Part shown: positions 35,162 to 50,848 of the stretch, one piece after another
Layout: each line of letters opens with the position of its first letter
Position numbering within the stretch: position 1 is the stretch's first letter
Assembly (NCBI RefSeq): GCF_900108505.1
Contig: NZ_FNWU01000001.1
Coordinates: 884,725-948,724, forward strand
Reading direction: 5' to 3'
Length of the DNA: 64,000 bases
Source of the DNA: Halopenitus malekzadehii
Lineage (GTDB): Archaea; Halobacteriota; Halobacteria; Halobacteriales; Haloferacaceae
Program-made: the position numbers and the translations under genes
Notes under the pieces: generated by a model
Seen by the model: only the letters and a program-made list of their open reading frames with translations
Database searches by the model: none
What the model was told of the DNA's origin: nothing

Positions 35162-35737
35162 ATGTCGGAACGGACGCCGGAGGACGTCTCGGATTCGATC
35201 CGCTATCAGGGCAAAGCGATCGACGATTCGGAGTGGATCCCACGGTTCCTCGCTGACCAGGAAACGGGCGTGCTCGGACTCGTTGCTGATGACGATCCGC
35301 ACCTCGTGACGCAGCTGTTCGTTTATGATGCAGCGGCGGGCGCGATCTTTCTTCACGGCGCACAAGCTGGACGCGCGCACGATCTCGTGACGACCAGCAC
35401 GCAACCGCGGGCGAGTTTCACGACGAGCGAGCAGGGACGGTACGTTCCGGCCGATCAGCCGGTAAATTTCACGGTCGAATACTCGAGCGTCGTCGCCAAC
35501 GGGTCCATCGACGTGCTTTCGGATCGAGAGGAAAAACGACGCGTTCTCGAACTGTTTATGGAAAAATTCGCTCCGCATCTGACAAGCGGCGAGGAGTACG
35601 ACCCGATCGCCGCGGAGTCGATCGATCGAACCGCCGTCTACCGACTCGACGTCGAAACCTGGAGCGGCAAATCCGGCTGGGCGGACGCCGACCGATCGGA
35701 TACATACGATCTGGACGCCGTTAGCGACGATCAGTGA
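35162..35737 (+). CDS. PNPOx-like FMN-binding split-barrel protein
   Basis: This 191-residue protein matches pyridoxamine 5'-phosphate oxidase-related flavoproteins of the NimA-like type: TGVLGLVADDDPHLVTQLFVYDAAAGAIFLHGAQAGRAHDLV at residues 36-77, then VNFTVEYSSVVANGSIDVLSDREEKRRVLELFMEKFAPHL. NimA-like proteins bind FMN or heme and may reduce small aromatic compounds; the substrate is unknown. Many of its codons are AT-ending, unlike the neighbours, which hints at transfer or lower expression. Confidence 0.85.
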   Translation: MSERTPEDVSDSIRYQGKAIDDSEWIPRFLADQETGVLGLVADDDPHLVTQLFVYDAAAGAIFLHGAQAGRAHDLVTTSTQPRASFTTSEQGRYVPADQPVNFTVEYSSVVANGSIDVLSDREEKRRVLELFMEKFAPHLTSGEEYDPIAAESIDRTAVYRLDVETWSGKSGWADADRSDTYDLDAVSDDQ

Positions 35738-35958: not shown

Positions 35959-36831
35959 CTACCCGTCCTTGTTCACGTTGACGTCGTCGAAGGTCACGTC
36001 GCGTTCGGTGACGTCGACGGTCATCGAGCCGATCTCCTCGATGGTGGCCTCGATCGTGTCGCCGTCGGCGAGCGCGCCGACGCCCTCGGGCGTGCCCGTG
36101 GTGATCACGTCGCCGGCCTCGACGGTGGCGCCGATGGAGGCGTACTGGACGACGTTGCCGCAGGTGTAGACCATGTCCGAGGTGTTGTCCGACTGCCGAA
36201 CCTCGCCGTTGAGTTCGAGCTCGAGGTCGAGGTTCTGGGGGTCGTCGATCTCGTCGGCGGTGACGACCGCCGGGCCGATCACGGTGAAGGTGTCGTAGGA
36301 CTTGCGGTTCGATCGGTCCTGGTCGCCGCGGACGGAGATGTCGAGCAGGATGGTGTAGCCGAAGATGCTGTCCCAGGCCTCCTCGGTGGAGACGTCCTTG
36401 ACGTCCTCGCCCATCACGAACGCGAGCTCGACCTCGTGGTCACACCGCCGGTCCGAGAAGGGGAGCTCGATCCCGTCGTCGGGGCCCACGACGCTCGAGG
36501 GGGCCTTCAGGAAGTAGCCCTTGTCCTCGATCGAGAACCACTCGTCGGTGGTGATGTCGCGGTCGGCGATCGCCTCCTCGATGTGGTTCTCGTAGTTCAG
36601 CGGCGCGGCGATCACCTTGCCGGGCCGGCGGATCGGCGAACCGAGGTGGGCGTCCTCGACCGCGACGTCCGCCTCGGCGTCGGCGTACTCGCTCGCGTCG
36701 TGGTCTCCCTCGATGTACTCCGCGAGCGGATCGTCGGACTCGAGCCCGAGTCGGTCCGTGAGGTCGATGATGCCGGTTCCGTCGTCGGTGAGCAATCCGA
36801 GGCGACCCTCGTCGTACTGGACGAATTGCAT
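35959..36831 (-). CDS. Fumarylacetoacetate hydrolase family protein (maleyl/fumarylpyruvate hydrolase)
   Basis: This 290-residue FAH-family hydrolase has metal ligands Glu-x-Glu in DHEVELAFVMGEDV and an Asp in LDISVRGDQD, plus the family C-terminus VITTGTPEGVGALADGDTIEATIE. It cleaves a C-C bond in a beta-diketo acid. With gentisate dioxygenase nearby, its likely substrate is maleylpyruvate or fumarylpyruvate, giving pyruvate and maleate or fumarate. The start at 36831 (MQFVQYDEG) follows a TATA-like ATTATGTATG by about 26 bp, so the longer reading to 36864 is unlikely. Confidence 0.9.
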   Translation of the reverse strand: MQFVQYDEGRLGLLTDDGTGIIDLTDRLGLESDDPLAEYIEGDHDASEYADAEADVAVEDAHLGSPIRRPGKVIAAPLNYENHIEEAIADRDITTDEWFSIEDKGYFLKAPSSVVGPDDGIELPFSDRRCDHEVELAFVMGEDVKDVSTEEAWDSIFGYTILLDISVRGDQDRSNRKSYDTFTVIGPAVVTADEIDDPQNLDLELELNGEVRQSDNTSDMVYTCGNVVQYASIGATVEAGDVITTGTPEGVGALADGDTIEATIEEIGSMTVDVTERDVTFDDVNVNKDG

Positions 36832-37056
36832 ACCCGTGTGACTCGTGGGCGCATACATAATCATGACGAAGTCGGATCCCGCGAATCGGGAATGGCGTCC
36901 ACGAAGGAGGCGATCGATGGCCGGAAACGGGCCGATCGATGCTCGATCCGTCGACGATGGCTGACCCGGACGGCGGTACGGTGCCGGCGACGACCGCGAG
37001 GAGCGGTTCTGGACGCGGGTGCTCGTGGCGGTCGCGTGAGCGACAGGATGCGAAAT

Positions 37057-37134
37057 CGACCGTGAACGAGCCCGGAACCGACGGTGAACGAGCCCGGAAC
37101 CGACCGTGGACGGAACCCGGAATCGACCGCGGAG
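37057..37134. repeat. About 22-bp tandem repeat in divergent promoter region
   Basis: CGACCGTGAACGAGCCCGGAAC is followed by a copy with one change (CGACGGTGAAC..., 37079-37100), a third, more divergent copy (CGACCGTGGACGGAACCCGGAAT) and a truncated fourth copy. The array lies between the FAH-family gene and the aryl-CoA ligase promoter. Confidence 0.7.
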
Positions 37135-37184
37135 GACAACAATTATTGGGACCGGTCACCGTTCGATACGTACTCACGTCCCAT

Positions 37185-38729
37185 ATGAACTACCTCGACG
37201 CATTCGACCGGTCGGTCCGGTGTCATCCCGAGCGGGACGCGGTCCGGACCGACGACGGTCGATCACTGACGTACGCCGACCTGGACGATCGAACCGACCG
37301 CCTGGCGACCGCCCTCGAGACGCTCGCGCCGGGCGAGCGCGTCGCCACGCTCGCGTACAATGGCAGCGAGGTGGTCGAGGTCCTCCTCGCGAGCCACAAG
37401 CGCGGGCTCGGCAACGTCCAGCTCCCCTTCCGCGAGAGCGCCGGCGCCCTGGCGGAGATGCTCGCGCCGACGAACCCGGCGGTGCTCGTCTTCGACGGCC
37501 GAACCGCCGAGCGCGCTTTCGACGTCCTCGACCGGACCGCGATCGAAACCGGGGTCAGCATCGACGGTGACGGGACCGACCGCGAGGACGTTCACGAGTA
37601 CGAGTCGATCGTCGCCGACGTCGACCCCGACGGCGGCCGGCCGCAGTCATACGGAAACGAACACGGAATGTTGTTCACGAGCGGGACCACCGGCGTCGCC
37701 AAGGCGGTCCCGTTCGATCAGGAGCAGCTGTGGTACGGCAGCACCCAGGACGTCATGGAGATGCAGCTGGACCACCGCGACGTCGGCGTGATCGCGACGC
37801 CGTGGTACCATATGGTCACCACGAACGCGTGGATCATGCCGCACCTCCAGGCCGGGGCCACGCTCGTGATCCAGACCACCTTCGATCCGCCCGAGACGCT
37901 CGAGCTGATCGAGGCGAACGAGGCGACCGGGCTGATCGCGGTTCCGACCCAGCTCCATACGCTCGTCGATGAGCAGCGCGAGGGCGGGTTCGACCTCGAG
38001 TCGCTGTCGTACATCCGCACCGGCGGGTCGGTCGTGACCGAGGAGCTCTCCGAGGCGGTCGCCGAGCACCTCAGCGAGGGACTCTACAACACCTACGGCC
38101 TCACCGAGGGCGGGCCGAACCTGGCGTTCGCCGACCCCGAGACGCAGCGGGCGAACCCCGGCACGATCGGCACTGAATCGTTCACCTGGGAGCTGCGCGT
38201 CGTCGAGTCCACCGGCCCGGAGGTCGAACCGGACCCGACCGCCACGGTCGATCCCGGGGAGACCGGCGAGGTGATCGGGAAAAGCCCCGGGATGGCCACC
38301 GAGTACGTCGGCCGGCCACACGAGAGCGAGCGACTGACCGTCGACGGCTGGCTCCGAACCGGCGACGTCGCTCGGATCGATTCGGACGGACTCCTCTACA
38401 TCGTCGATCGGGTGGACAACATGATCGTCAGCGGCGGCGAGAACGTCTATCCCCAGGAGGTCGAGAACGCCCTGACCGCCCACGAGAACGTCGACGCCGC
38501 CGCGGTCGTCGGTCGCGAGGACGACCGATGGGGCCAACGCATCGCCGCCGTCGTCGCCGTCACCGGGGACGTGACCGAGACGGACCTCGACGAGCACTGC
38601 CGGACCCACGACGGGCTCGCCGACTTCAAGCGCCCCCGCGAGTACGTGATCACCCGGGAGTCGTTCCCGCGGACCGAGACCGGAAAGCTCCGACGCGGCG
38701 ACGTGCGAACGAGGTTCTTCGAGGAGTAG
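37185..38729 (+). CDS. Aryl/acyl-CoA ligase, candidate 4-hydroxybenzoate-CoA ligase
   Basis: This 514-residue class I adenylate-forming enzyme has the AMP-binding loop LFTSGTTGVAKAV (residues 164-176), YGLTEGGPN, the hinge YIVDRVDNMIVSGGENVYPQEVE, and the C-terminal catalytic Lys501 (TETGKLRR). It activates a carboxylic acid to its CoA thioester via an acyl-AMP. Between a gentisate dioxygenase and an FAD monooxygenase, the likely substrate is 4-hydroxybenzoate, as in the haloarchaeal CoA-dependent gentisate route. The ATG at 37185 shares its surrounding 14-mer with the monooxygenase start. The family core begins here, so longer readings were dropped. Confidence 0.85.
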   Translation: MNYLDAFDRSVRCHPERDAVRTDDGRSLTYADLDDRTDRLATALETLAPGERVATLAYNGSEVVEVLLASHKRGLGNVQLPFRESAGALAEMLAPTNPAVLVFDGRTAERAFDVLDRTAIETGVSIDGDGTDREDVHEYESIVADVDPDGGRPQSYGNEHGMLFTSGTTGVAKAVPFDQEQLWYGSTQDVMEMQLDHRDVGVIATPWYHMVTTNAWIMPHLQAGATLVIQTTFDPPETLELIEANEATGLIAVPTQLHTLVDEQREGGFDLESLSYIRTGGSVVTEELSEAVAEHLSEGLYNTYGLTEGGPNLAFADPETQRANPGTIGTESFTWELRVVESTGPEVEPDPTATVDPGETGEVIGKSPGMATEYVGRPHESERLTVDGWLRTGDVARIDSDGLLYIVDRVDNMIVSGGENVYPQEVENALTAHENVDAAAVVGREDDRWGQRIAAVVAVTGDVTETDLDEHCRTHDGLADFKRPREYVITRESFPRTETGKLRRGDVRTRFFEE

Positions 38730-38841
38730 CGCGGCCGCCGCAACGGCGGGACGAGTGGTCGAGACGAACGAACGGACGGAACGGACGAACGGACGAGACG
38801 GGCGGAGGAGACGTGTTTTCGAGACGAGCGATCGACGCCGG

Positions 38842-39927
38842 CTACGAGGACGGCTCGGCCTCGGCGTAGAAGTTGAACGCCTCGAGGACGGGACGGTCGC
38901 TCATTCCGAGCAGGATCGCCTCGTCATCGGGCTCGTGGTGATGGATCTCGTCGGGCGGGACGATGAAGACGTCCCACTGGCTCCACTCCAGGGCCTCGTC
39001 GCCGACGTGGGTCGCGCCCTCGCCCTCGATGACGAAGTACACCTCGGTGGCGTTGTGGAAGTGCGGGTCGGTCGGCCCCTCCTGCAGCAGCTGGGCGCGG
39101 AACGTCATCGTCGGGAACAACGGCGGGCTCCCGGTCGCGGGGTTGACGTACGAGAGGCTGTAGCCGTCGTGGGGATCGGGCTCGTCGTTGTCGGCGCGCT
39201 GGCGGAGCGCCTCGAGCATCTCGTCCCAGCCGAACCGGTACGGCGGCGTCGGCTCGCGGATCCCCTCGAAGGGACCCGGGATCGAGCCGTCGCCGGCGCC
39301 ACCTTCCGGGCGGCCGTTGCCGTACTGGGAGTCCCAGTACCCCGGCGTCTTCGTCACGGGCTGGCGCTCGAGTTCGTGGTTCTCGAAGACGTTGCGGGCG
39401 TTCATCGAGTCGAGCACGAGCGGCAGGTCGAGGACGTCGAGCCAGGCGGCGGTCTCGTCGGAGTCGTTGACGTGGTCGTGCCACTCCCACTGCGGGGTGG
39501 TGATCAGGTCGTTGTCCTGCATCGGGAACTCCTCACCGGCGACGACCGTCTTCATGTCCTCGTGGCCGTCGATCGAGAACCGGAGCGCGTTCGCTCCGTG
39601 GCGGTGTGACGGAGCGGTTTCGCCCGGCGAGACCGTCTGGATCCCGACGTAGATGCTGTTGGAGATCGCGTGAGCGGTGTTGATCGGGACGGCGACGCGG
39701 CGCTGGAACCCCGGCGGCAGGTCGGCGATCGGCACGTCCTCCTCGATGTGGTCGATCGCCTCCCGGATGTCGTCCCACTTCCAGACGCCCGGCTCGGGGT
39801 CGTCCAGGGCGGTTCCCATCTCGTCCTCGACCTCCCACAGCGGACGGAGACTGTGCTCCTCGAGGATCGCCCGGGTTTCGGAACTCAGTTCCAGGAGCTC
39901 CTCGGGATCGGACTCTGTCTGTGCCAT
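38842..39927 (-). CDS. gdoA: Gentisate 1,2-dioxygenase
   Basis: A 361-residue bicupin. The first cupin has the Fe(II)-binding pair His108/His110 (SHRHGANALRFSIDG). The second has HFHNATEVYFVIEGEG and VPPDEIHHH. The length and the N-terminal block (LRPLWEVEDEMG; PINTAHAISNSIYVGIQTVSPGE) match gentisate dioxygenases. It opens the ring of gentisate to maleylpyruvate using O2. A TATA-like ACTTATG lies about 27 bp upstream of ATG 39927, indicating a leaderless message. Confidence 0.93.
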   Translation of the reverse strand: MAQTESDPEELLELSSETRAILEEHSLRPLWEVEDEMGTALDDPEPGVWKWDDIREAIDHIEEDVPIADLPPGFQRRVAVPINTAHAISNSIYVGIQTVSPGETAPSHRHGANALRFSIDGHEDMKTVVAGEEFPMQDNDLITTPQWEWHDHVNDSDETAAWLDVLDLPLVLDSMNARNVFENHELERQPVTKTPGYWDSQYGNGRPEGGAGDGSIPGPFEGIREPTPPYRFGWDEMLEALRQRADNDEPDPHDGYSLSYVNPATGSPPLFPTMTFRAQLLQEGPTDPHFHNATEVYFVIEGEGATHVGDEALEWSQWDVFIVPPDEIHHHEPDDEAILLGMSDRPVLEAFNFYAEAEPSS

Positions 39928-40013
39928 AGTGTCCCGTTCGCACAGGATCGACATAAGTGTATTGGAGGTCGATGCCGGTCGGACTGACTCCGGGACGCCT
40001 CGGATGACGTGCC

Positions 40014-40184
40014 CTATGTTTGCGCCTCGAAGACGTCGCCGGTCGCGAAGACCGCCCGACAATCCTCACAGACCATCCGCCGTTGGACTGCGTACTCCCA
40101 GAGCTTCCCCCCGCAGTCGAGACAGTCGAAGTGTGCCTGCACGAACGGGCTCTCCTCGGCGTAGGGGTTCTCGAACTCGGCCAT
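40014..40184 (-). CDS. Small zinc-ribbon protein
   Basis: A 56-residue protein with one four-Cys zinc ribbon: CLDCGG and CEDCRAVF separated by 13 residues (KLWEYAVQRRMV). Small zinc-finger proteins of this kind are widespread in haloarchaea and often regulatory. It is encoded just upstream of gentisate dioxygenase on the same strand (87 bp gap) and divergent from the MBL hydrolase, so it may serve the cluster. Start at 40184 follows the family-like core; a longer reading to 40211 has no support. Confidence 0.75.
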   Translation of the reverse strand: MAEFENPYAEESPFVQAHFDCLDCGGKLWEYAVQRRMVCEDCRAVFATGDVFEAQT

Positions 40185-40275
40185 ACGCGACGACACGGGT
40201 GGACCGCTCAAAAGGATATCGCCGAGAACCGATCCGGAGAAAGATTGAATCGACGGGCGGTCGAGGTTCGGATCG

Positions 40276-40968
40276 ATGATCGACGAGATCGCCCCTGACG
40301 TCTACGACGTGACCGTTCGCGAGCATGCCGGCGGCCGCTACCGCGTCTTCCTGTTCGACGGCGCGACCCCGACGCTCGTCGACGTCGGCTTCGCGGACAC
40401 GGTCGATCGGGTCACGGCGGCAACCGACGAACTCGGGATCGAGCCGGAACGAGTCGTGATCACCCACGGCGACGGCGACCACGTGGGTGGGCTCCCGGGC
40501 GTCATCGACGCGTTCGATCCGGAGGTGTGGGCCCCCGAGGGGCTCGTGCTCGAGGAGGCGATCGATGCCGACCTCGAGGCGACATCCGATCGACGGACTG
40601 ACGACGGCTCCGGCGCAGGCGGGAACGTGCGATCGATCCGGCGGTACGGCGACGGCGACACGATCGGCGCCTTCGAGGCCGTCGCGACGCCGGGTCACAC
40701 GCCGACCCATCACTCGTTGGTGGACGAGGACGCCGGGATCGCGGTCCTCGGGGACGCCGTCTTCGGCGCCGACGCGCGCGGGCTCCCGGAGGGCTCCGTC
40801 GTCCTCCCGACCGCCCACTACTCGGCGGACCTGAACACGGCCGATGAGAGCCTGGAGAAACTCCTCGCGTTCGAGTTCGACGTCGGGCTCGTCTACCACG
40901 GCTCGAGCGTGCTCGAGGACGCGAGCGAGACGATCGACCGGTTCGTGAACTTTGCCGGGAAGGCCTGA
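40276..40968 (+). CDS. Metallo-beta-lactamase-fold hydrolase, variant motif
   Basis: This 230-residue MBL-fold protein carries THGDGDHVGGLPG at residues 54-66, where most members have HxHxDH; the second His is replaced by Asp. Other ligands look intact: His in GHTPTHHS, Asp in VLGDAVFGAD, and His in VYHGSS. It hydrolyses a small ester, thioester or lactone. Its place between gentisate dioxygenase and acyl-CoA synthetase genes makes an aryl-CoA (gentisyl-CoA) thioesterase an attractive but unproven role. Confidence 0.85.
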   Translation: MIDEIAPDVYDVTVREHAGGRYRVFLFDGATPTLVDVGFADTVDRVTAATDELGIEPERVVITHGDGDHVGGLPGVIDAFDPEVWAPEGLVLEEAIDADLEATSDRRTDDGSGAGGNVRSIRRYGDGDTIGAFEAVATPGHTPTHHSLVDEDAGIAVLGDAVFGADARGLPEGSVVLPTAHYSADLNTADESLEKLLAFEFDVGLVYHGSSVLEDASETIDRFVNFAGKA

Positions 40969-41040
40969 CGCGGCGGCGCCGCCACGGCTCGACCGAGGAG
41001 GTGTCGAAAGGGATATGCCGGCGGTCTCTGTACACGGCGT

Positions 41041-42459
41041 ATGAACGTTGGTAGCCTGTTCCAACCGACGTCGATCGCCGTGGTGGGGGCTTCCCGGTCC
41101 CCGGAGAAGATCGGTCATCAGGTGCTCGTCAACCTCGGGGCGTTCGACGGCACGGTGTACCCGGTCAATCCCTCCGCAGAGGGGGAGATCCTGGGCCGGG
41201 AATTCGTGGGATCGACGGCGGAGATCGACGACGACGTCGATCTCGCGCTCGTGGCGGTGCCGGCACCGGTCGTGCCGGACGTGATCGAGGAGTGTGCAGC
41301 GGCCGGGATCGACGCCGCGGTGATCTACGCCGGCGGCTTCGCCGAGGCGGGTCCGGAGGGCGAGGACCGTCAGAACCAGATCGTCGAGACGGCGACCGAC
41401 CACGAGATGGCGGTGCTCGGGCCGAACACGAGCGGGTTCGTGATTCCCGGCGACGGGTTGTGTGGATCCTTCGCGAGCGGCGTCGAGGAGGTTCCCGCGG
41501 GCGGTACCTGCGTGATCGCCCAAAGCGGCGGCGTCGCCCACTCGCTGGCCTTCCAGACGCTCCGGGAGGGACGCGGGCTCTCGGCGATGGTCGGACTTGG
41601 CAACCGCGCGACGGTCGGGTTTCCGGAGGCAATCGCCCACTTCGACGACCACGAGGGCACCGACGCGATCGTGCTCCACGTCGAGGGGACCGACCGGGGT
41701 CGCGAACTGCTCGAGGCGTCGCGAACGGCGGACACGCCGGTGATCGCCTACAAGGTCGGCGAGTCGGACGTGGGCGCGTTCGCGGAGTCACACACCGGCG
41801 CGTTGACCGGCGACCACGAGCTCTATCTCGCCGGCTTCCAGCAGTACGGGATCCCAACGGTCGAGTCGACGCAGGAACTGCTCGACGGCGCCGCCGTACT
41901 GGGTGACGGACCCCGTCCGTCCGGACCCAACGTCGGCGTCATCACCGCCCAGGCCGGTCCGGGGATCATCATCGCCGACCGGATCCAGCGCTCCGGCGGA
42001 CGGCTTCCCGAACTCGCCGACGCGACGAGCGAGGAGATCGCTGCGATCCTGCCGGGGATCACTTACGCCGAGAACCCGGTCGACACCGGCCGGCCGATGC
42101 CCGAGTTCGGCGACGTCGTCGCCGCGGTTGCGGAGGACGACGCGGTCGACGTCGTCCTCGTGAACGAACTCTACGAGGAGGCCCTCGGGCTGCCCGTCGA
42201 CCGGATGCGGTCGCTCGTCGAGACGGTCGAGAAGCCGATCGTCTTTGCCACGGACGGCCCGCCGGCGGACTTCGAGGCCGACGTCGCCGCGCTCCGCGAT
42301 CTCGGGATCCCCGTGTTCCATTCGCCCGAGCGTGCGGCCGACGTCGTGAGCCTGCTCGCGCGGTACGGCGCGCTCGCGGGCGGTTCCGGCGGAGGGAGAA
42401 GGGGGACGGAGACGAACGACGAAACCGCCGAGTCGACGGGGGTGAGCACCGATGTCTGA
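41041..42459 (+). CDS. acdA: ADP-forming acyl-CoA synthetase, alpha subunit
   Basis: This 472-residue protein has an N-terminal CoA-binding Rossmann domain (FQPTSIAVVGASRSPEKIGHQVLVNL) and succinyl-CoA-synthetase-like domains (LGPNTSGFVIP; IAQSGGVAHSLAFQ). Its candidate phosphohistidine is H251 in SHTGALTG. It interconverts an acyl-CoA plus ADP and Pi with the free acid, CoA and ATP. It overlaps the beta-subunit gene by 8 nt. A separate alpha subunit resembles the Pyrococcus arrangement, whereas many haloarchaeal enzymes are single fused chains. The substrate could be an aryl-CoA given the neighbours. Confidence 0.9.
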   Translation: MNVGSLFQPTSIAVVGASRSPEKIGHQVLVNLGAFDGTVYPVNPSAEGEILGREFVGSTAEIDDDVDLALVAVPAPVVPDVIEECAAAGIDAAVIYAGGFAEAGPEGEDRQNQIVETATDHEMAVLGPNTSGFVIPGDGLCGSFASGVEEVPAGGTCVIAQSGGVAHSLAFQTLREGRGLSAMVGLGNRATVGFPEAIAHFDDHEGTDAIVLHVEGTDRGRELLEASRTADTPVIAYKVGESDVGAFAESHTGALTGDHELYLAGFQQYGIPTVESTQELLDGAAVLGDGPRPSGPNVGVITAQAGPGIIIADRIQRSGGRLPELADATSEEIAAILPGITYAENPVDTGRPMPEFGDVVAAVAEDDAVDVVLVNELYEEALGLPVDRMRSLVETVEKPIVFATDGPPADFEADVAALRDLGIPVFHSPERAADVVSLLARYGALAGGSGGGRRGTETNDETAESTGVSTDV

Positions 42460-43219
42460 TCGGAGCGGCGCCGTCGACGGATCGACCGATCTCGACACCG
42501 CAACCCGGATCGACGGGGACGCCATCGCGTCGATCATCGAGCGTGCTCGTGCCGCGGACCGCACCACGCTGACCGAGGCGGAGTCGAAGTCGCTGCTCGA
42601 TGCGGCCGGGATCGAGACGCCCGACCGCGCCGTCGTTGGCGACCCGGAGGAGGCGATCACGGCCGCGGAGGCGATCGGGTATCCGGTCGTCGCGAAGGTC
42701 TCCTCGGCGGCGGTCACCCACAAAAGCGAGTGGGCGGACGGCGCCGGGGTCGCGCTCGACCTGGCGGACGCGGACGCGGTCGCCGACGCGACTGCCGCGA
42801 TCCGCGAGGCTGCGGCCGCCGAGGGGATCGACGCCGAGGTGCTGATCGAGGATGCCGCCGACCTCGAGGGAGGAACCGAAACCATCGTCGGCGGGATGAA
42901 CACCCCCTCGTTCGGCCCTGTGACGCTCGTTGGGCTCGGGGGCGTCTTCGCGGAGGTCTACGAGGACACCGCCCACCGGATCGCGCCGGTCTCGGAGCCG
43001 GAGGCACGTGCCGCCGTCGAGTCGCTGACTGCCGCGCCACTGCTGTCGGGCTACCGCGGCCGCCCGCCGGGCGACGTCGACGCGCTCGTCGAGACGATCC
43101 GGGCCGTCGGCGACCTCCTCGTCGAGACGCCCGCGATCGACGAGATCGACGTCAATCCCGTGCTCGTCTCGCCGGACGGCGCGGTCGCGCTGGACGCACT
43201 CGTCGTCCTCGAGGGGTGA
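42452..43219 (+). CDS. acdB: ADP-forming acyl-CoA synthetase, beta subunit (ATP-grasp)
   Basis: This 255-residue ATP-grasp domain protein starts the fold at LTEAESKSLLDAAGIETPDR (residues 38-57), with the nucleotide-binding YPVVAKVSSAAVTHKSE and the Gly-rich GGMNTPSFGPVTLVGLGGVFAEVYED. The C-terminus is IDEIDVNPVLVSPDGAVALDA. It provides the ATP/ADP site of the heteromeric enzyme with the upstream alpha subunit. The first 30 residues are an acidic extension. The 8-nt overlap argues for coupled, stoichiometric synthesis. Confidence 0.92.
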   Translation: MSDRSGAVDGSTDLDTATRIDGDAIASIIERARAADRTTLTEAESKSLLDAAGIETPDRAVVGDPEEAITAAEAIGYPVVAKVSSAAVTHKSEWADGAGVALDLADADAVADATAAIREAAAAEGIDAEVLIEDAADLEGGTETIVGGMNTPSFGPVTLVGLGGVFAEVYEDTAHRIAPVSEPEARAAVESLTAAPLLSGYRGRPPGDVDALVETIRAVGDLLVETPAIDEIDVNPVLVSPDGAVALDALVVLEG

Positions 43220-43352
43220 CGCGAATGCGGGGTGAGACGTCGTCCCGAAGCGGACCGGGACGTCGGCACCGGAATTGGAACCGGCACCGAAACCGGGGGC
43301 TGCATCGGAATCCGGGTCGGGATCGCCGTCGACGCGATCCGGAGGTGGAGCC

Positions 43353-44870
43353 GTGACCGGACGGCTCCGCGAACGTCTCGATCGCCCCGCGGTCGCGTTC
43401 CCGATCGCGGCGATCGCTGGCGCGGTCCCCCTCGTGGCCGTCGGCGGCGATCCGGGGTGGATGCTCTCGATCACGGTGTTCTGCATCGGCCTCTGGGTGC
43501 TCGCGCCGATCCGGCCGGGATACACGAGCGTGATCGGGATCGGGCTGCTCGCGGCCGTCTTCTCGCCGGAGATGGCGCTGTCGGGATTCAGCTCGTCGGC
43601 GACGTGGCTGGTCGGCTTCGGCCTGTTGATGGGCGTTGCGACCCGCCGGAGCGGGCTGGCAGGACTCGCCAGCGACCGCGTGATCGCCCGCTGTGTGCCG
43701 GCGTCGGTCCGGTCCGGCGACGGGACGATGGCACCGACGCGGATCTATCGACGTCTCCTCATCGGACTCGGGCTGTCCGCGCACGCGCTCGCGTTGCTCG
43801 TCCCCTCCGCACTCGTTCGAGTGCTGTTGCTCGCGCCGATCCTCTCGGCGATCGGTTCGCGATTCGACGACCGGACGGCCCGGGTCGGGCTCTATCTGGG
43901 CCCCCTGTTTGCCACCTTCTACGGGTCGCCGGGGTTCCTGACGGCCGACCTGCCGAACATCATCATCTCCGGATTGGCGGCGTCGCTGGCCGATCACACG
44001 ATCGCCTGGAGCGAGTGGGCGGTCCACCTGTATCCCGTGATGGGGATCACGCGCGTGATTGCCGTGATCGCGGTCGTCTACGTCCTGTTCCGACCCGACG
44101 CCGACTCGACGGTCACGTTCGCCGGAGCGGACGCCGACGTGGAAAACGTTGGTTCGGAGGACGTCGACGTGGAGGACGTCGACGTGGAGGACGTTGACGC
44201 GGAGGACGTTGGTGCGGGTACGGCCGTCGATCCGGAGGGGACCGACGACGCGGATGGACCCTCCCGACCCGGCCGGATGTTGGCGTTCCTGCTCGTCGGG
44301 ACGGCGATCTGGATGACCGACTTCATCCACGGACTCGATCCGGTCGTCGGCGCGCTCGCGGTCGTCGTGCTCGCGTTCCTGCCGGGGATCGGCGTCGTCT
44401 CCTTCGAGATCGTCGACGCTGAGGCGGACTTCACGATCCTCTTTTTCGTCGCGGTCGTCCTCTCGATCGGCGACGGCCTCGCGTCGACCGGCGTCTCCGA
44501 GACTGCGGCGACGGCGCTTTTGGGGTCGATCCCGGCGGACGTCCCGCTCGCGGTGAGCCTCACGCTCGTCTACCTGAGCACCGCCGTCCTGGCGCTGTTG
44601 ATGGAGGGACTGGCCGTGGCGAGCGTGCTCACCCCGGTGCTCATCCAGTTCGCCGAGGCGTCCGGGCTCCCGCTGACGCCCGTACTGCTCTCGGAGACGC
44701 TCGCGCTCAGCACCTACTTCTTCCCGTACCAGTCGGCGGTGTTGATCGCGATGCTCGCGGAGGGCGACGTCGAGACGGGCGAACTGATCCGGACCACCGC
44801 CGCCTGCTCGCTCGTGACGATGGTCGTCCTCTTCCCGCTTCAACTGCTGTGGTTCGGGGTGCTGTACTGA
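43353..44870 (+). CDS. DASS/SLC13-type membrane transporter
   Basis: This 505-residue permease, starting at GTG 43353, has about 11-12 helices and SLC13/ArsB-superfamily landmarks: SGFSSSATWLVGFGLLMGVATRRSGLA; FATFYGSPGFLTADLPNIIISGLAASLA; LALSTYFFPYQSAVLIAMLAEGD. A hydrophilic linker at about residues 253-305 carries the repeat VEDVD. It probably imports an organic acid, and the aromatic cluster suggests hydroxybenzoate or gentisate. No start in the preceding 130 bp fits the family. Confidence 0.85.
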   Translation: MTGRLRERLDRPAVAFPIAAIAGAVPLVAVGGDPGWMLSITVFCIGLWVLAPIRPGYTSVIGIGLLAAVFSPEMALSGFSSSATWLVGFGLLMGVATRRSGLAGLASDRVIARCVPASVRSGDGTMAPTRIYRRLLIGLGLSAHALALLVPSALVRVLLLAPILSAIGSRFDDRTARVGLYLGPLFATFYGSPGFLTADLPNIIISGLAASLADHTIAWSEWAVHLYPVMGITRVIAVIAVVYVLFRPDADSTVTFAGADADVENVGSEDVDVEDVDVEDVDAEDVGAGTAVDPEGTDDADGPSRPGRMLAFLLVGTAIWMTDFIHGLDPVVGALAVVVLAFLPGIGVVSFEIVDAEADFTILFFVAVVLSIGDGLASTGVSETAATALLGSIPADVPLAVSLTLVYLSTAVLALLMEGLAVASVLTPVLIQFAEASGLPLTPVLLSETLALSTYFFPYQSAVLIAMLAEGDVETGELIRTTAACSLVTMVVLFPLQLLWFGVLY

Positions 44871-44992
44871 GGGGCCGATCGTGTCCGCGACGGGGGACGG
44901 AACGACCACGTCCACGGAGAACGGGACCGGCCGCACTCACGACGGGACCGCAAACGCTTTGATGCTCGTCGCGTAACGCGAACACGTCCCAT

Positions 44993-46222
44993 ATGAGCGA
45001 ACCTACCACGGACGCGCCGGTGTTGATCGCCGGCGCCGGGCCGGTCGGGATGACGACGGCGCTGGCGCTGCACGCCCGCGGCGTCGAGTCGACGATCCTC
45101 GAACGCGACCCCGAAGACCGCGATCGGTCCGGAAGCCGGGCGATCTACGTGCACGGATCGACGCTGCGAACGCTCGAACGGATCCACCCCGGTCTCGGAA
45201 CCGACCTCGTCGATGAGGGGCTCGTCTGGCCGACCCGCCACACGCGCTGGCGCGGCAAGCAGGTGTTCCGGCGGACCTACGACTCCCCGGGCGGGTCCGG
45301 CGACATTCCGCATTTCACCAGCCTCCCGCAGGTCGTGACCGAGGAGTACATGCACGAGGCGGTGGCGGAGGCCGGGATCGACATTCACTGGGAGGCCGAG
45401 GTCGACACGGTCGACTCCTCGAGCGACGGCGTCACCGTCGAGACGACCGACGGCCGCGAGTGGAACGGGGAGTACCTGGTGGGCGCCGACGGCGGCGGCT
45501 CACAGGTCCGCAACGAGATCGGCGCGAACTTCGAGGGCGACCAGTCCGAGAACTCCTTCATCATCGCCGACATCGAGGACCCCGACGAGGACCCCCTGCC
45601 GCTGGAGCGATTGTTCCACTACGACGCCCCCGAGACTGACGGCCGAAACGTCCTGCTGGTCCCGTTCGAGGGCGGTTGGCGGCTCGACATCCAGTGTTTC
45701 GAGGACGACGATCCCGAAGCCCTCACCGAGGACGGACGGATGCGCGAGTTCGTCCGCGACGTGATGGGCGAGGCGTACGTCGACCACATCACCTGGGTGT
45801 CGACCTACAAGTTCCTGCAGGTGATGGCGGACTCCTTCGTGGACGAGCACCGGCGCGTGCTGCTGGCCGGGGAGGCGGCCCACCTGCTTGCCCCCTTCGG
45901 CGCCCGCGGAATGAACTCCGGGATCGCCGACGCCGACGAGGCAGCCTCCGCGATCGCGGTCGCGGTAGACGCTCGGACCGATGCCGTCGCCCGCGACGAG
46001 GTCGAACTCTACGCCGCCCGCCGTGAGAAGGCGGCCGAGTTCAACCTGAACGCGGCCGGGCAGGCGCTCGAGTACCTCCAGGGTGACGATCCGGTCACCG
46101 TCCTCCGCAAGGAGGCCGCCGCGTCGCTGGCGGACCACTTCGAGTCGGCCGGCGAGTGGCTCGATGACGCGCCCTACGGCCCCCACGGCACCCCGCCGAT
46201 CGTCTCGACGGGCAACTACTGA
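44993..46222 (+). CDS. FAD-dependent aromatic monooxygenase, candidate 4-hydroxybenzoyl-CoA 1-hydroxylase
   Basis: This 409-residue group A flavoprotein monooxygenase has the FAD Rossmann motif (IAGAGPVGMTTALALHARG), the DG motif (LVGADGGGSQVRNEIGANFEG) and the second FAD motif (LLAGEAAHLLAPFGARGMNSGIADADE, with Glu in place of the usual Asp). It hydroxylates an aromatic ring with NAD(P)H and O2. With an aryl-CoA ligase and gentisate dioxygenase in the cluster, the NIH-shift hydroxylase acting on 4-hydroxybenzoyl-CoA is the best guess. 3-Hydroxybenzoate 6-hydroxylase or a salicylate hydroxylase are the alternatives. Confidence 0.82.
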   Translation: MSEPTTDAPVLIAGAGPVGMTTALALHARGVESTILERDPEDRDRSGSRAIYVHGSTLRTLERIHPGLGTDLVDEGLVWPTRHTRWRGKQVFRRTYDSPGGSGDIPHFTSLPQVVTEEYMHEAVAEAGIDIHWEAEVDTVDSSSDGVTVETTDGREWNGEYLVGADGGGSQVRNEIGANFEGDQSENSFIIADIEDPDEDPLPLERLFHYDAPETDGRNVLLVPFEGGWRLDIQCFEDDDPEALTEDGRMREFVRDVMGEAYVDHITWVSTYKFLQVMADSFVDEHRRVLLAGEAAHLLAPFGARGMNSGIADADEAASAIAVAVDARTDAVARDEVELYAARREKAAEFNLNAAGQALEYLQGDDPVTVLRKEAAASLADHFESAGEWLDDAPYGPHGTPPIVSTGNY

Positions 46223-46257: not shown

Positions 46258-46587
46258 CTACTCGAGATCGAGTTTCTTTGCGACCCAGTTATCGCGGGCG
46301 GCCATCACGAACGTCTCCTCGTCGGCGAAGTCCGTATGTTCCGCGACGAACGCGTCCCAGGTGCCGCTTGAAACCTCGCCGAGGTCGGCGCCGCTCGTCG
46401 CCTCCGAGGGGCTGGCCGCGACCAGGTCGTCGAACGTCTCGAAGTCGGTGTGTTCCGTGACGAACGCGTCGTCGAACAGCGCCGACAGCGGGATCGATTC
46501 CTCGCGGTCGTACACCTCGTCGGCGTCCGGCAGGTCTGTACGTGATTCGGCGGCGTCCTCGAGGTCGGCTCCGGTGACCATATCCAT
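46258..46587 (-). CDS. Acidic protein with internal repeat, unknown function
   Basis: A 109-residue, very acidic protein. The segments DDAFVTEHTDFETFDDLVAAS (about residues 40-60) and WDAFVAEHTDFADEETFVMAA (about 79-99) are clearly related, so the protein contains two copies of a helical unit. No family is recognised. It lies tail-to-tail with the FAD monooxygenase, 35 bp apart, and could be a small partner of the cluster. Confidence 0.7.
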   Translation of the reverse strand: MDMVTGADLEDAAESRTDLPDADEVYDREESIPLSALFDDAFVTEHTDFETFDDLVAASPSEATSGADLGEVSSGTWDAFVAEHTDFADEETFVMAARDNWVAKKLDLE

Positions 46588-47104: not shown

Positions 47105-47866
47105 TCACCGATAGGTGAGGTTCAACTCGAGGTCGTTGACGGCGGTGAGCAGGCGGTCGGCGTACTCCTCGTGGAGTCGCTCCTCGGTCAGTCGGTTCGC
47201 GGCTCCGGCGATCGACAGCGCGCCGCGAACGCGGTCACGGTGGATGATCGGGACGCCGACGGCGTGGATGCCGGTCATGTCCTCGGCGAGATTGAGCGCA
47301 TAGCCGCGTTCCCGGACGGTTTCGAGCTCGTCGAAGAGGGCATCGGGATCGGTGATCGTGGCCTCGGTGCGTCGCGGGAGTCCGTGTCGATCGACGATGT
47401 CGGCGACGCGGTCCTCGGGAAGCCGCGAGAGGATCGCCTTCCCGCCCGAGTTGAGGTGGAGGTGTCGCCAGGATCCGACCAGTGAGTCGACGTTGACGTC
47501 GAGCGAGCCGCCGTCGCCGAAGAGGTACATCCCCATGCCGTTCTCCTCGGTGATGAGCCAGACCATCTCCCCGGTCTCGTCGGCCAACTCGCGGACCAGC
47601 GGCTTCGCCTTCCGGAACACGTCGTACCGCGTGCGGACGTAGGAGCCGTACCCGAAAAACCCCAGCCCGAGCCGATACTCGTCGCCCTCCTGGACCGCGA
47701 ACCGGTGGTTTCGGAGCGTGCTCAGGTGTTTGTGCACCGCGCTCTTCGAGAGGCCGAGCTCCTCGGCGATCGTCGTCACCCGTGCGCCGTCGCGCTTGCG
47801 GAGCACCTCGATCACCTCGAACATCGTCTCGACCGACTTCACGGTTCCTGTGTTGCCGTCCGTCAT
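47105..47866 (-). CDS. IclR-family transcriptional regulator
   Basis: This 253-residue regulator has an N-terminal winged helix (VTTIAEELGLSKSAVHKHLSTLRNHRFAV, residues 30-58) and the IclR effector domain (VRELADETGEMVWLI; LHLNSGGKAILSRLPEDRV; GIHAVGVPIIHRDRVRGALSIAG). IclR proteins commonly regulate aromatic-acid pathways, binding the substrate or an intermediate. At the edge of the gentisate cluster it is the obvious regulator. It is probably autoregulated through the inverted repeat at 47903-47923. Confidence 0.93.
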   Translation of the reverse strand: MTDGNTGTVKSVETMFEVIEVLRKRDGARVTTIAEELGLSKSAVHKHLSTLRNHRFAVQEGDEYRLGLGFFGYGSYVRTRYDVFRKAKPLVRELADETGEMVWLITEENGMGMYLFGDGGSLDVNVDSLVGSWRHLHLNSGGKAILSRLPEDRVADIVDRHGLPRRTEATITDPDALFDELETVRERGYALNLAEDMTGIHAVGVPIIHRDRVRGALSIAGAANRLTEERLHEEYADRLLTAVNDLELNLTYR

Positions 47867-47970: not shown

Positions 47971-49017
47971 CTACGACGCCGACCGTGCCGACAGCGAGAT
48001 CTCGTGGTCCGCAAGCACCACCGCGAGGACGTACCAGGCGATCGCGATCAGGACGATGGTGCCGCCGGCGGGAATCCCGTAGGCGTAGCCGATCAGGAGC
48101 CCGGAAATCACCGAGGTTTCGCCGACGAGCACGGCGAGAGCCATCGCCTCCCGGAAGCTCGTGGCGACTTGGGAGGCCGCCGCGGTGGGGACGACGAGCA
48201 TCGCCGCGACGAGGATGACGCCGAGCACCTGCATCGATCCCACGACGACCATCGCCGTGAGCACGATGAGCAGCCGGTTGTATCCGGAGACGTTCAGCCT
48301 CGCGACCCGGGCGGCCTGCTCGTCGAAGGTGACGTACAGCAGCTGTTTGTACCGCGACCCGACCGCCGCGAGGACGACCGCGGAGACGACGACCATCAGC
48401 CAGGCGCCGTCGACCGGGACGAACGAGATGTTGCCGAAGAGGAACGCCTCGATGTTGAGCCCGGAGAACCCGCCGCCCCAGGAGATGATGATGGTCCCGA
48501 GCGCGAACGACCCCGTCAACATGATCGCGATCGGGACGTCGCCGTAGGCGGCGGCGTGCTCGGCGAGCCACTCGACCGCGAGGGCACCGATCACGGCGGC
48601 GACGAGCGCCGAGGCGAGCAGCGGCGCCGACCAGCCGGTCGCGCTCCCGATCAGCAACCCGCCGGCGACGCCCGCGAAGGCGGTGTGTGCAAGCGTCTCG
48701 CCGATCAGCGCCATCTCCCGGTGGACGATGAAGATCCCCACGACCGGGCCGACGATCCCGATCAGCGCGCCGGTGGCGAGCGAGTACCAGACGAACCGAA
48801 AGCTGAACAGCTCGAGGCCCGTGATCGCTCCGAGCGCCCGCCCGACCAGGACGAGGTACGCCGCGAGGCCGCCGCCGGGGAGGCCGAGCGACGCGAGCCC
48901 GTCGCTGACCATAAACGCCAGGAGGAGGACGGTCGTGCCGGCGACGCCGACGATCGCCGCCTGCAACAGCCGACGCCGCGTGATGGATCTGGTCGTCGTC
49001 AGTAGTGATGATGGCAT
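47971..49017 (-). CDS. znuB: Zinc/manganese ABC transporter permease
   Basis: This 348-residue ABC-3 family permease has eight or nine helices. Landmarks are VGIFIVHREMALIGETLAHTAFAGVAGG (residues 80-107), IAIMLTGSFALGTIIISWG, and VGSMQVLGVILVAAMLVVPTAAASQVATSF. It forms the channel for Zn2+ or Mn2+ with the ATPase encoded 2 bp upstream. The N-terminal 40 residues are an extra helix before the core. It is the last gene of the operon. Confidence 0.92.
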   Translation of the reverse strand: MPSSLLTTTRSITRRRLLQAAIVGVAGTTVLLLAFMVSDGLASLGLPGGGLAAYLVLVGRALGAITGLELFSFRFVWYSLATGALIGIVGPVVGIFIVHREMALIGETLAHTAFAGVAGGLLIGSATGWSAPLLASALVAAVIGALAVEWLAEHAAAYGDVPIAIMLTGSFALGTIIISWGGGFSGLNIEAFLFGNISFVPVDGAWLMVVVSAVVLAAVGSRYKQLLYVTFDEQAARVARLNVSGYNRLLIVLTAMVVVGSMQVLGVILVAAMLVVPTAAASQVATSFREAMALAVLVGETSVISGLLIGYAYGIPAGGTIVLIAIAWYVLAVVLADHEISLSARSAS

Positions 49018-49019
49018 CG

Positions 49020-49760
49020 TCAGTGGTGGTGATGGACGACCGTTCCGGTCGCTCCGTAGGCGCGCTCGAGCGCGTCGCTTTCGACGAACGATTCGGTATC
49101 ACCGTGGTGGTACAGCTCCCGGTTGACGCAGGCGATCCGCTCGGCACGGTCGGTGACGACGCCGATGTCGTGTTCGATCAGGATGATCGCGATCCCGTCG
49201 TCGTTGAGCTCGTCGAGGAGCCCGTAAAACCGGTCCCGCGACTCGGCGTCGACGCCGACGGTCGGCTCGTCAAGGGCGAGCAGGTCCGCCTTCGAGGCGA
49301 GCGCGCGGGCGATGTAGGCACGCTGGCGCTGGCCCCCCGAGAGCGCGTTGATCCGTCGGTTCCGGAGGTCGTCGACGTCGACTCGGGCCATCGCGTCACG
49401 GACGATCTCCCGGTCCTCGTCGGTGAGCCGACTGGCACCGCGGTGCGGATAGCGGCCCATCTCGACGACCTCCTCGACGGTGACTGGCATCGTCGACCCC
49501 TGCTGGGTCGCCTGCTGGGCGACGTAGCCGATCCGGCCGCCGTCCTCGAAGTCCGCGACCGGCTCGCCGAACAGCTCGATCGACCCCGAGTCGGGCTCCT
49601 TGAGTCCGAGCAACAGATGCAACAGCGTCGTCTTTCCGGAGCCGTTCGGCCCGATGAGCCCGAGGAACTCGCCCGCCTCGACCTCGAGGGAGACGTCCTC
49701 GATCGCGACGGTGTCGCCGTAGCGGAAGGTGACGTTTCGGGCGGCGGCGACCGCGCTCAT
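49020..49760 (-). CDS. znuC: Zinc/manganese ABC transporter ATPase
   Basis: This 246-residue ABC ATPase has Walker A GPNGSGKTT (residues 38-46), Q-loop YVAQQATQQ, signature LSGGQRQRAYIARAL, Walker B LLALDEPT and H-loop IEHD. It ends in a His-rich tail (GTVVHHHH) that may bind the transported metal. Its ATG overlaps the binding-protein stop by 4 nt, so the three genes are tightly coupled. The ATG at 49760 gives the normal length; upstream extension to 49844 is not supported. Confidence 0.94.
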   Translation of the reverse strand: MSAVAAARNVTFRYGDTVAIEDVSLEVEAGEFLGLIGPNGSGKTTLLHLLLGLKEPDSGSIELFGEPVADFEDGGRIGYVAQQATQQGSTMPVTVEEVVEMGRYPHRGASRLTDEDREIVRDAMARVDVDDLRNRRINALSGGQRQRAYIARALASKADLLALDEPTVGVDAESRDRFYGLLDELNDDGIAIILIEHDIGVVTDRAERIACVNRELYHHGDTESFVESDALERAYGATGTVVHHHH

Positions 49761-50848
49761 CCGTCGACTCCCAACCCGGCTTGCAGGGCCGGCAGGGTGA
49801 TCTCGGTCAGCTGTTCGATGTAGCCCCAGCCGCGGTCGTTCCATTCGGCGGTCGTTCCCTCCGCCGGCGAGACCTCTCGCACCTCCGAGGCGGTCGATTC
49901 GCGGACGATCGTGTTCGCCAGGTCGTTCGATCCGAAGTGGTCGGCGAGGATCACGTCGATCCCCTCGCGGTCGACGAGGTCGATCGTCGCCGAGATCTCA
50001 TCCTGGCTCGGTTCCGCGTGCGGGGAGACTCCCTGCGGGGAATGCACGGTGAAGCCGTACCGGTCCGCGAGATACCGGTAGGAGTTGTGGCCCGCGAGGA
50101 CGACCGTCTCGTGGGTGCGATCGGCGAGCCCCTCCTCGAACGTTCGATCGACGTCCTCGAGCCGGCTCCGGTACGCCTCGGCGTTCTCGGCGTAGGCGTC
50201 GGCGGTGTCCGGATCCGCAGCCTCGAGTCCCGCCCGGACGTTCTCGACGCTCCGTGATGCACGGATCGGGTCGGTCCAGTAATGTGGATCCACGCCCTCC
50301 CGCTCAGCGGCGCCGTGATCGGTGGTTTCGTCGTGGTCGTGATCGGTGGTTTCGTCGTGGTCGTGATCGGTGGTTTCGTCGTGGTCGGTCCCGGATTCAT
50401 CGTGGGTACCGTCGACATCGTGATCCTCGCCGTCACTATGGGCGTGATCCTCGTCGGCCGCGAGCAGGTCGATCCCGTCGAGGGCGTCGACCAGTTCGAC
50501 CTCGGGATAGTCCCGTTCGATCGTGGCGGCGGCATCCAGTGCCCAGTTCTGGAACCCCTCGATGTCGAGGTAGACGAACAGTTCGTGGGAGGCCACCTCG
50601 GTGGCCAGCTCCGGGCCGGCCTCGTAGGCGTGGCCCATCGTCCCCGCCGGGATCGGGTTCTCGATGGGAAACGTCTCACCACCGACGTGACTCGCGAAGT
50701 CGGACAGGGTGAAGAAGGCGGCGTATCCACCCTCCTCAAGCTCGCGCTCGCCGGCGATCTGACGGAGCTGACCGGTACATCCGGCGGTGGCGGACGCCGC
50801 AAGCACGCCCGCAGCCCCCGTCAGGAGGTCGCGTCGTGTGTGTGTCAT
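49757..50848 (-). CDS. znuA: Zinc/manganese-binding lipoprotein (ZnuA type)
   Basis: This 363-residue metal-binding lipoprotein has the signal RRDLLTGAAGVLAASATAGC. Four metal-site regions contain His or Asp: GTMGHAYEAG, DPHYWTDP, LAGHNSYRY and LADHFGSND. A His/Asp-rich loop (residues 134-178) built of the repeat HDHDETTD is typical of zinc rather than manganese transporters. The loop comes from a 24-bp DNA tandem repeat around 50321-50385. An AT-rich dyad lies 30 bp upstream. Confidence 0.92.
   Translation of the reverse strand: MTHTRRDLLTGAAGVLAASATAGCTGQLRQIAGERELEEGGYAAFFTLSDFASHVGGETFPIENPIPAGTMGHAYEAGPELATEVASHELFVYLDIEGFQNWALDAAATIERDYPEVELVDALDGIDLLAADEDHAHSDGEDHDVDGTHDESGTDHDETTDHDHDETTDHDHDETTDHGAAEREGVDPHYWTDPIRASRSVENVRAGLEAADPDTADAYAENAEAYRSRLEDVDRTFEEGLADRTHETVVLAGHNSYRYLADRYGFTVHSPQGVSPHAEPSQDEISATIDLVDREGIDVILADHFGSNDLANTIVRESTASEVREVSPAEGTTAEWNDRGWGYIEQLTEITLPALQAGLGVDG

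Follow-up and report, generated by a model that had tools for sequence, protein, structure and literature searches.

The gene cluster analysed here raises the question of how a haloarchaeon may convert 4-hydroxybenzoate into gentisate, and which enzyme would move the carboxyl group in the process. It lies in a 64,000-nucleotide stretch of contig NZ_FNWU01000001.1 of Halopenitus malekzadehii (positions 884,725 to 948,724; hereafter the window, with cluster coordinates counted from its first letter). The source genome is haloarchaeal, has a size of 3.1 Mb in 41 contigs and is 99.6% complete. Precedents for such a conversion exist in both domains. For Haloarcula sp. D1, the conversion of 4-hydroxybenzoate to gentisate with intramolecular (carboxyl) migration has been reported (Fairley 2002, pmid 12450849). 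For the phgABC genes of Brevibacillus laterosporus PHB-7a (Zhao 2018, pmid 30070064), the steps described in PMC7862547 are the formation of a coenzyme A (CoA) ester, hydroxylation with a 1,2-shift and thioester hydrolysis. Based on gene families, co-occurrence and gene neighbourhoods, we predict that the window cluster serves the aerobic catabolism of 4-hydroxybenzoate via CoA esters to gentisate, and further to central metabolites. We put the probability of this reading at roughly 0.7. Its central element is a FAD monooxygenase (FMO), which accompanies gentisate 1,2-dioxygenase (GDO) across haloarchaea.

Gene boundaries, drawn from codon-use gene calls combined with domain searches, give the following layout of the cluster:

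35959–36864, minus strand: FAH-family hydrolase, probable maleylpyruvate (or fumarylpyruvate) hydrolase (PF01557, E 3e-55)
37185–38729, plus strand: AMP-forming aryl-CoA ligase, candidate 4-hydroxybenzoate-CoA ligase (AMP-binding and C-terminal domains)
38842–39927, minus strand: GDO, double cupin (TIGR02272, E 6e-62)
40276–40968, plus strand: metallo-β-lactamase (MBL)-fold hydrolase, possible gentisyl-CoA thioesterase (PF00753)
41041–42459, plus strand: ADP-forming acyl-CoA synthetase (ACD), alpha subunit (TIGR02717; CoA_binding and Succ_CoA_lig domains)
42452–43219, plus strand: ACD, beta subunit, ATP-grasp_5 (PF13549, E 7e-62)
about 43353–44870, plus strand: DASS/SLC13-type anion permease, candidate aromatic-acid importer (PF00939, TIGR00785)
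44993–46222, plus strand: group A FMO, candidate 4-hydroxybenzoyl-CoA 1-hydroxylase (NIH shift) (FAD_binding_3, E 1.5e-45)

The open frame of the AMP ligase begins at 36939, and codon use and homologues place its start at 37185. The grouping of ligase, FMO, GDO, FAH-family hydrolase and permease, proposed in an initial annotation of this DNA, is real, as it was confirmed by the gene calls and domain searches and recurs across haloarchaea.

The presence of each cluster gene was surveyed by homology search in 243 genomes of the order, which represent 78 genera. FMO was found in 40 genomes and GDO in 38; 34 genomes have a hotdog thioesterase of the type associated with the cluster, 32 have the AMP ligase and 29 have ACD beta. 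As many as 37 of the 38 GDO genomes carry FMO (Fisher p 5e-39), and FMO is thus the gene that chiefly accompanies gentisate cleavage in this group. Because the genomes are related, the counts were repeated by genus, and FMO was present in all 19 GDO-containing genera of the 78 (p 3e-16). The AMP ligase is accompanied by FMO in 31 of its 32 genomes, ACD beta by GDO in 29 of 29, and the hotdog thioesterase by GDO in 34 of 34 and by FMO in 33 of 34; the co-occurring ligase and thioesterase fit a route via CoA esters. In the 20-kb stretches surrounding 40 of the haloarchaeal FMO genes, the most regular neighbours were FAH (20 loci, the window counted), ACD alpha (16), GDO (14), ACD beta (13) and the AMP ligase (11). 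Since the same genes recur together and also co-occur between genomes, their grouping cannot be attributed to chance.

The FMO has the profile of a single-component group A flavin hydroxylase (PF01494 over residues 8–328) and is the only full-length FAD_binding_3 hydroxylase of the source genome (157 bits; the next match is partial and scores 48 bits). The nearest folds to its AlphaFold model (mean pLDDT 90) are the p-nitrophenol 4-monooxygenase PnpA (6ain) and the p-hydroxybenzoate hydroxylase PobA (1pbe), both with Z about 36, at a sequence identity of about 18–23%. PnpA also attacks a ring carbon bearing a substituent para to the hydroxyl group. The flavin motif reads GEA in the FMO clade and GDA in PobA and PnpA; the clade members looked at carry GE(A/S)xHLxxPFGARG(M/L)NSG, and the GE of this stretch is GD in the outgroup and PobA. 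The carboxylate-binding residues of PobA (a sequence identical to 1pbe) were considered as an indicator of a free-acid versus a thioester substrate. No arginine of the FMO clade is aligned to PobA Arg214, and this comparison was dropped and given no weight, because the stretch aligns poorly and the arginine is missing from the outgroup as well.

A profile of the FMO family, run over 84,980 species genomes, detected related sequences in Bacillota and Actinomycetota as well as in a few Pseudomonadota. In a quick maximum-likelihood tree of 64 sequences (SH-aLRT support, no bootstrap; the order of the inner branches is weakly supported), the haloarchaeal FMOs group together in a single clade (support 100) nested in a larger clade (100), which also includes one branch from Bacillota (99) and one from actinobacteria (86). 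The outgroup, at approximately 30–40% identity, is clearly separate.

It is the gene neighbourhoods of these relatives that point to the substrate. In Geobacillus jurassicus, whose FMO is 50% identical to the window FMO over 398 residues, the genes for a PaaK-type aryl-CoA ligase, FMO, a hotdog thioesterase, FAH and GDO lie close together, in this order, on one strand. Two further Bacillota genomes have the order FMO, thioesterase, GDO and FAH, accompanied by genes for thiolase, hydratase and ligase. In Alicyclobacillus and several haloarchaea FMO is found near ligase, thiolase and 3-hydroxyacyl-CoA dehydrogenase/hydratase genes, and this thiolase/hydratase/dehydrogenase/ligase setting fits the shortening of coumaroyl-CoA (hydroxycinnamoyl-CoA) to 4-hydroxybenzoyl-CoA. 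In the actinobacterial branch, FMO adjoins pabB, ADC lyase and a pair of ligases; the models of benzoate-CoA ligase and of FadD22 (4-hydroxybenzoate-AMP ligase) match one of this pair. p-Aminobenzoate is a para-substituted benzoate. The Bacillota, side-chain-shortening and actinobacterial settings thus share an activated para-substituted benzoate, and therefore 4-hydroxybenzoyl-CoA is favoured over salicylyl-CoA or free 3-hydroxybenzoate. This argument from gene context supports a para-substituted benzoyl-CoA as the FMO substrate, hence 1-hydroxylation of 4-hydroxybenzoyl-CoA with carboxyl migration. It also lends support to the CoA-dependent, NIH-shift route to gentisate that the initial annotation had read from the cluster.

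The same neighbourhoods bear on two other origins of gentisate. The ligase could produce salicylyl-CoA and the FMO could be an SdgC-like salicylyl-CoA 5-hydroxylase, with gentisyl-CoA being subsequently hydrolysed to gentisate. The literature describes a CoA-mediated salicylate pathway through sdgC, which employs the same kinds of enzymes (ligase, FAD hydroxylase, GDO) and leads to the same end product; the likeness of SdgABC of Streptomyces sp. WA46 to the window cluster covers the CoA ester, the FAD hydroxylase and the gentisate dioxygenase. However, that system, compared here by its description, has an ortho-hydroxy substrate and involves no carboxyl migration, whereas the FMO-clade neighbourhoods point to para substituents: p-aminobenzoate is the context of the actinobacterial branch, and side-chain-shortening genes fitting the path from coumarate to 4-hydroxybenzoyl-CoA are that of the Bacillota and haloarchaeal FMOs. 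We regard the salicylate route as quite improbable.

Alternatively, the FMO could be a 3-hydroxybenzoate 6-hydroxylase acting on the free acid, while the CoA enzymes activate benzoate or cinnamate upstream, in a manner resembling Haloferax D1227. That strain reportedly degrades aromatic acids, benzoate among them, via gentisate, and 3-hydroxybenzoate is the best-known bacterial source of gentisate. On the other hand, a free-acid hydroxylase would need neither the hotdog thioesterases and aryl-CoA ligases with which the FMO clade sits in Bacillota nor the p-aminobenzoate activation found beside it in actinobacteria. Moreover, 3-hydroxybenzoate 6-hydroxylase was not among the 60 best PDB sequence matches of the FMO, and neither this enzyme nor SdgC had an entry among the family-model and PDB matches listed. 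A free-acid substrate is, in our opinion, unlikely.

The actinobacterial relatives also suggest that the FMO might act on a different para-substituted benzoyl-CoA, such as 4-aminobenzoyl-CoA or a methoxylated 4-hydroxybenzoyl-CoA, so that 5-aminosalicylate or a substituted gentisate would feed GDO. The score of GDO on the 5-aminosalicylate 1,2-dioxygenase model NF049978, almost equal to that on the gentisate model, is consistent with this. Nevertheless, amine-handling genes were not recognised in the catabolic loci, 4-hydroxybenzoate and coumarate are widespread substrates of plant origin, and haloarchaeal catabolism of 4-hydroxybenzoate via gentisate is on record, which makes such a substrate highly improbable for the window enzyme.

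As regards the actinobacterial FMOs themselves, one possible function would be to convert a 4-aminobenzoyl thioester into a 5-aminosalicyl unit by hydroxylation with an NIH shift; literature searches on p-aminobenzoyl-CoA NIH shifts returned nothing useful. Loci combining FMO with p-aminobenzoate genes include L079 (6799–12047), as well as L080, L094–L096, L098, L100–L103, L106, L107, L109–L112, L114, L118, L120, L127 and L146 of our locus set. In Streptomyces goshikiensis, the cluster of FMO, p-aminobenzoate and two AMP-ligase genes is located beside genes for a fatty acyl-AMP ligase, desaturases and an acyl carrier protein.

In the 4-hydroxybenzoate pathway that we propose, the DASS permease would import the substrate, and the AMP-forming ligase and/or ACD, judging from their families and co-occurrence, would make 4-hydroxybenzoyl-CoA. 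Among the top PDB sequence matches of the AMP ligase are feruloyl-CoA synthetase (8wev) and 4-chlorobenzoate-CoA ligase (1t5d). The clade and neighbourhoods of the FMO suggest that it would hydroxylate the thioester-bearing C1, para to the hydroxyl group, and that the C(O)SCoA group would move to C2, yielding gentisyl-CoA. Gentisate might then be released, without the usual hotdog thioesterase, by the MBL hydrolase or by ACD running towards ATP. The predicted cleavage of the gentisate ring to maleylpyruvate by GDO is well supported by family: its nearest solved relatives are the gentisate dioxygenases 2d40 (E 4e-48) and 3bu7, and the metal-ligand stretches SHRH and WHDH of the N-domain are conserved. 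Finally, the FAH protein may hydrolyse maleylpyruvate to pyruvate and maleate. Among solved structures, the maleylpyruvate hydrolase 6jvv is its best match (E 6e-50), therefore direct hydrolysis without an isomerase is plausible.

Several points weigh against this pathway. The FMO has been likened to PhgB by gene neighbourhood, not by sequence. Three of the surveyed genomes have FMO without GDO, and one has GDO without FMO. The window GDO is only 29% identical to that of Geobacillus and scores 209 bits on TIGR02272, below the equivalog cut-off of 442 bits; the Geobacillus GDO also falls below it (310 bits), thus the model seems narrow. Among the cluster genes, no maleylpyruvate isomerase could be recognised. 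The search for a hotdog-thioesterase orthologue was negative for the window, the source genome (E up to 1e-5) and two genomes of the same genus, even though the same query finds it in 34 of the 243 genomes. With the thioesterase missing from genome and genus and no isomerase recognised, there is no support for calling the pathway complete, as the initial annotation had tentatively done. Expression data also enter here. In haloarchaea acdB is said to accompany gdoA, in a gdoA-acdB-tieA locus of Haloferax D1227 and Haloarcula D1. These two companion genes, acdB and tieA, were reportedly not expressed in Haloarcula D1 on 4-hydroxybenzoate, and in Haloferax D1227 they were reportedly expressed on benzoate, cinnamate and phenylpropionate. 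Such a pattern would point to other substrates for ACD and the thioesterase. The window resembles this locus in combining GDO with an ADP-forming CoA synthetase subunit, and differs from it in that no hotdog gene of the tieA kind occurs in the genus of the window (the GDO-adjacent hotdog gene was used as the query for tieA).

The missing thioesterase deserves closer attention. In related genomes the hotdog gene is located between GDO and ACD beta, in the order GDO, hotdog, ACD beta, ACD alpha. The three genomes that lack it, i.e. the source genome and two others of the genus, are all about 99% complete. Generic hotdog proteins encoded elsewhere in the source genome are distant, sharing at best 24% identity with the cluster type. 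The "candidate thioesterase" named earlier is presumably the MBL-fold protein, which is indeed present and is not a 4HBT/hotdog enzyme. It is a conserved cluster member in Haloarcula, Halorussus and others, and in all cluster-associated orthologues looked at it has an HxDxDH variant of the metal motif (Asp for the second His of HxHxDH); the GHT, GDA and HGSS stretches are also conserved in cluster-associated orthologues. The MBL protein was considered as the sole replacement of the thioesterase, an idea weakened by the absence of its gene from the cluster of one same-genus genome. The "extra acyl-CoA enzymes" of the initial annotation are likewise present and amount to one two-subunit ADP-forming CoA synthetase, the ACD. 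It occurs in all three genomes of the genus, and its alpha subunit aligns to solved NDP-forming enzymes and keeps the SHTG histidine. Possible roles of ACD are the activation of 4-hydroxybenzoate, the opening of gentisyl-CoA coupled to ATP formation, and action on another substrate. We tentatively suggest that MBL or ACD may release gentisate from gentisyl-CoA.

A more specific proposal, which we advance tentatively and consider doubtful, is that the genus lost the thioesterase and that ACD closes a CoA cycle (gentisyl-CoA + ADP + phosphate → gentisate + ATP + CoA), perhaps also making 4-hydroxybenzoyl-CoA when running forward. If true, the thioester-assisted carboxyl shift would proceed at little or no ATP cost, and locus L104 would be a second case.

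L104 (1889–7654) comes from a gammaproteobacterial metagenome-assembled genome and encodes in a row an FMO (55% identical to the window FMO), GDO, FAH, a fused ADP-forming CoA synthetase and a GST-type protein; an AMP ligase and a thioesterase were not found on its 13-kb stretch. In L193 (8913–10628) of Bacillota, the FMO and hotdog thioesterase frames are both broken, indicating a decaying phg-like cluster. A replacement of the thioesterase by ACD in three bacterial lineages was also considered and dropped, as these two L193 genes are frameshifted and its ACD lies in another operon. This leaves L104 and L113, both short contigs with no statistical weight.

Beyond the FMO gene, two genes lie on the opposite strand:

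46258–46587, minus strand: conserved small acidic protein of 109 aa, function not assigned (no Pfam match)
47105–47866, minus strand: IclR-family regulator (IclR_C, E 2e-30; HTH_IclR)

The IclR regulator under which the cluster had been placed is thus present, although it lies outside the interval 35959–46222 assigned to the cluster, beyond the 109-aa open reading frame. By its position, it probably controls expression. The IclR gene is conserved beside the AMP ligase/MBL/permease module in other haloarchaeal loci, and elsewhere in haloarchaea the DASS permease is clustered with MBL, AMP ligase and IclR. Scans for promoters and terminators yielded numbers close to those obtained with shuffled sequence. 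The ortholog group of the 109-aa protein comprises the window and 20 FMO loci of haloarchaea, and the C-terminal half is well conserved. The FAH gene is adjoined by a gene for a PF12900 flavin-binding-type protein (35162–35737, plus strand), and a distant PF12900 protein (26%) is encoded beside FMO in 8 loci of other haloarchaea. Zinc/manganese-type ABC transporter genes (ABC-3 permease, ZnuA-like binding protein; 47971–50848, minus strand) come after the IclR gene.

The window cluster shares with phgABC an aryl-CoA ligase, a single-component hydroxylase and gentisate ring cleavage, and in Bacillota the loci of the close FMO relatives comprise ligase, hydroxylase and thioesterase, as would be expected for phgABC. 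With Haloarcula sp. D1 it would have in common a haloarchaeal route from 4-hydroxybenzoate to gentisate with intramolecular migration. In contrast to phgABC, the window and its genus lack the hotdog thioesterase, and the cluster additionally contains ACD and the MBL hydrolase. Its ligase also belongs to another AMP-binding subfamily, being 25% identical over a short stretch to the PaaK-type ligase of Geobacillus; ligases of the PaaK type occur in several of the Bacillota clusters. We therefore classify the cluster as a variant, not a member, of the phgABC/Haloarcula D1 route, because a dedicated thioesterase, which defines the bacterial route, was looked for and not found, and the ligase type differs. 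The outline of the pathway has been known since 2002 and the bacterial enzymes since 2018. In the literature searched, we found neither a record of the Haloarcula D1 hydroxylase gene nor an assignment of any archaeal hydroxylase gene for the carboxyl NIH shift of 4-hydroxybenzoate. Three findings are new: an archaeal hydroxylase family, backed by strong co-occurrence, has been assigned, this family is connected with clusters of Bacillota, and the genus lacks the thioesterase.

In a genus without this thioesterase, a concrete question arises, namely how gentisyl-CoA is opened. A single FMO family, distributed almost one to one with GDO across haloarchaea, makes the candidate archaeal hydroxylase directly testable. 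The same family ties haloarchaea to the phg-like clusters of Bacillota and to an unexplored actinobacterial branch associated with p-aminobenzoate.

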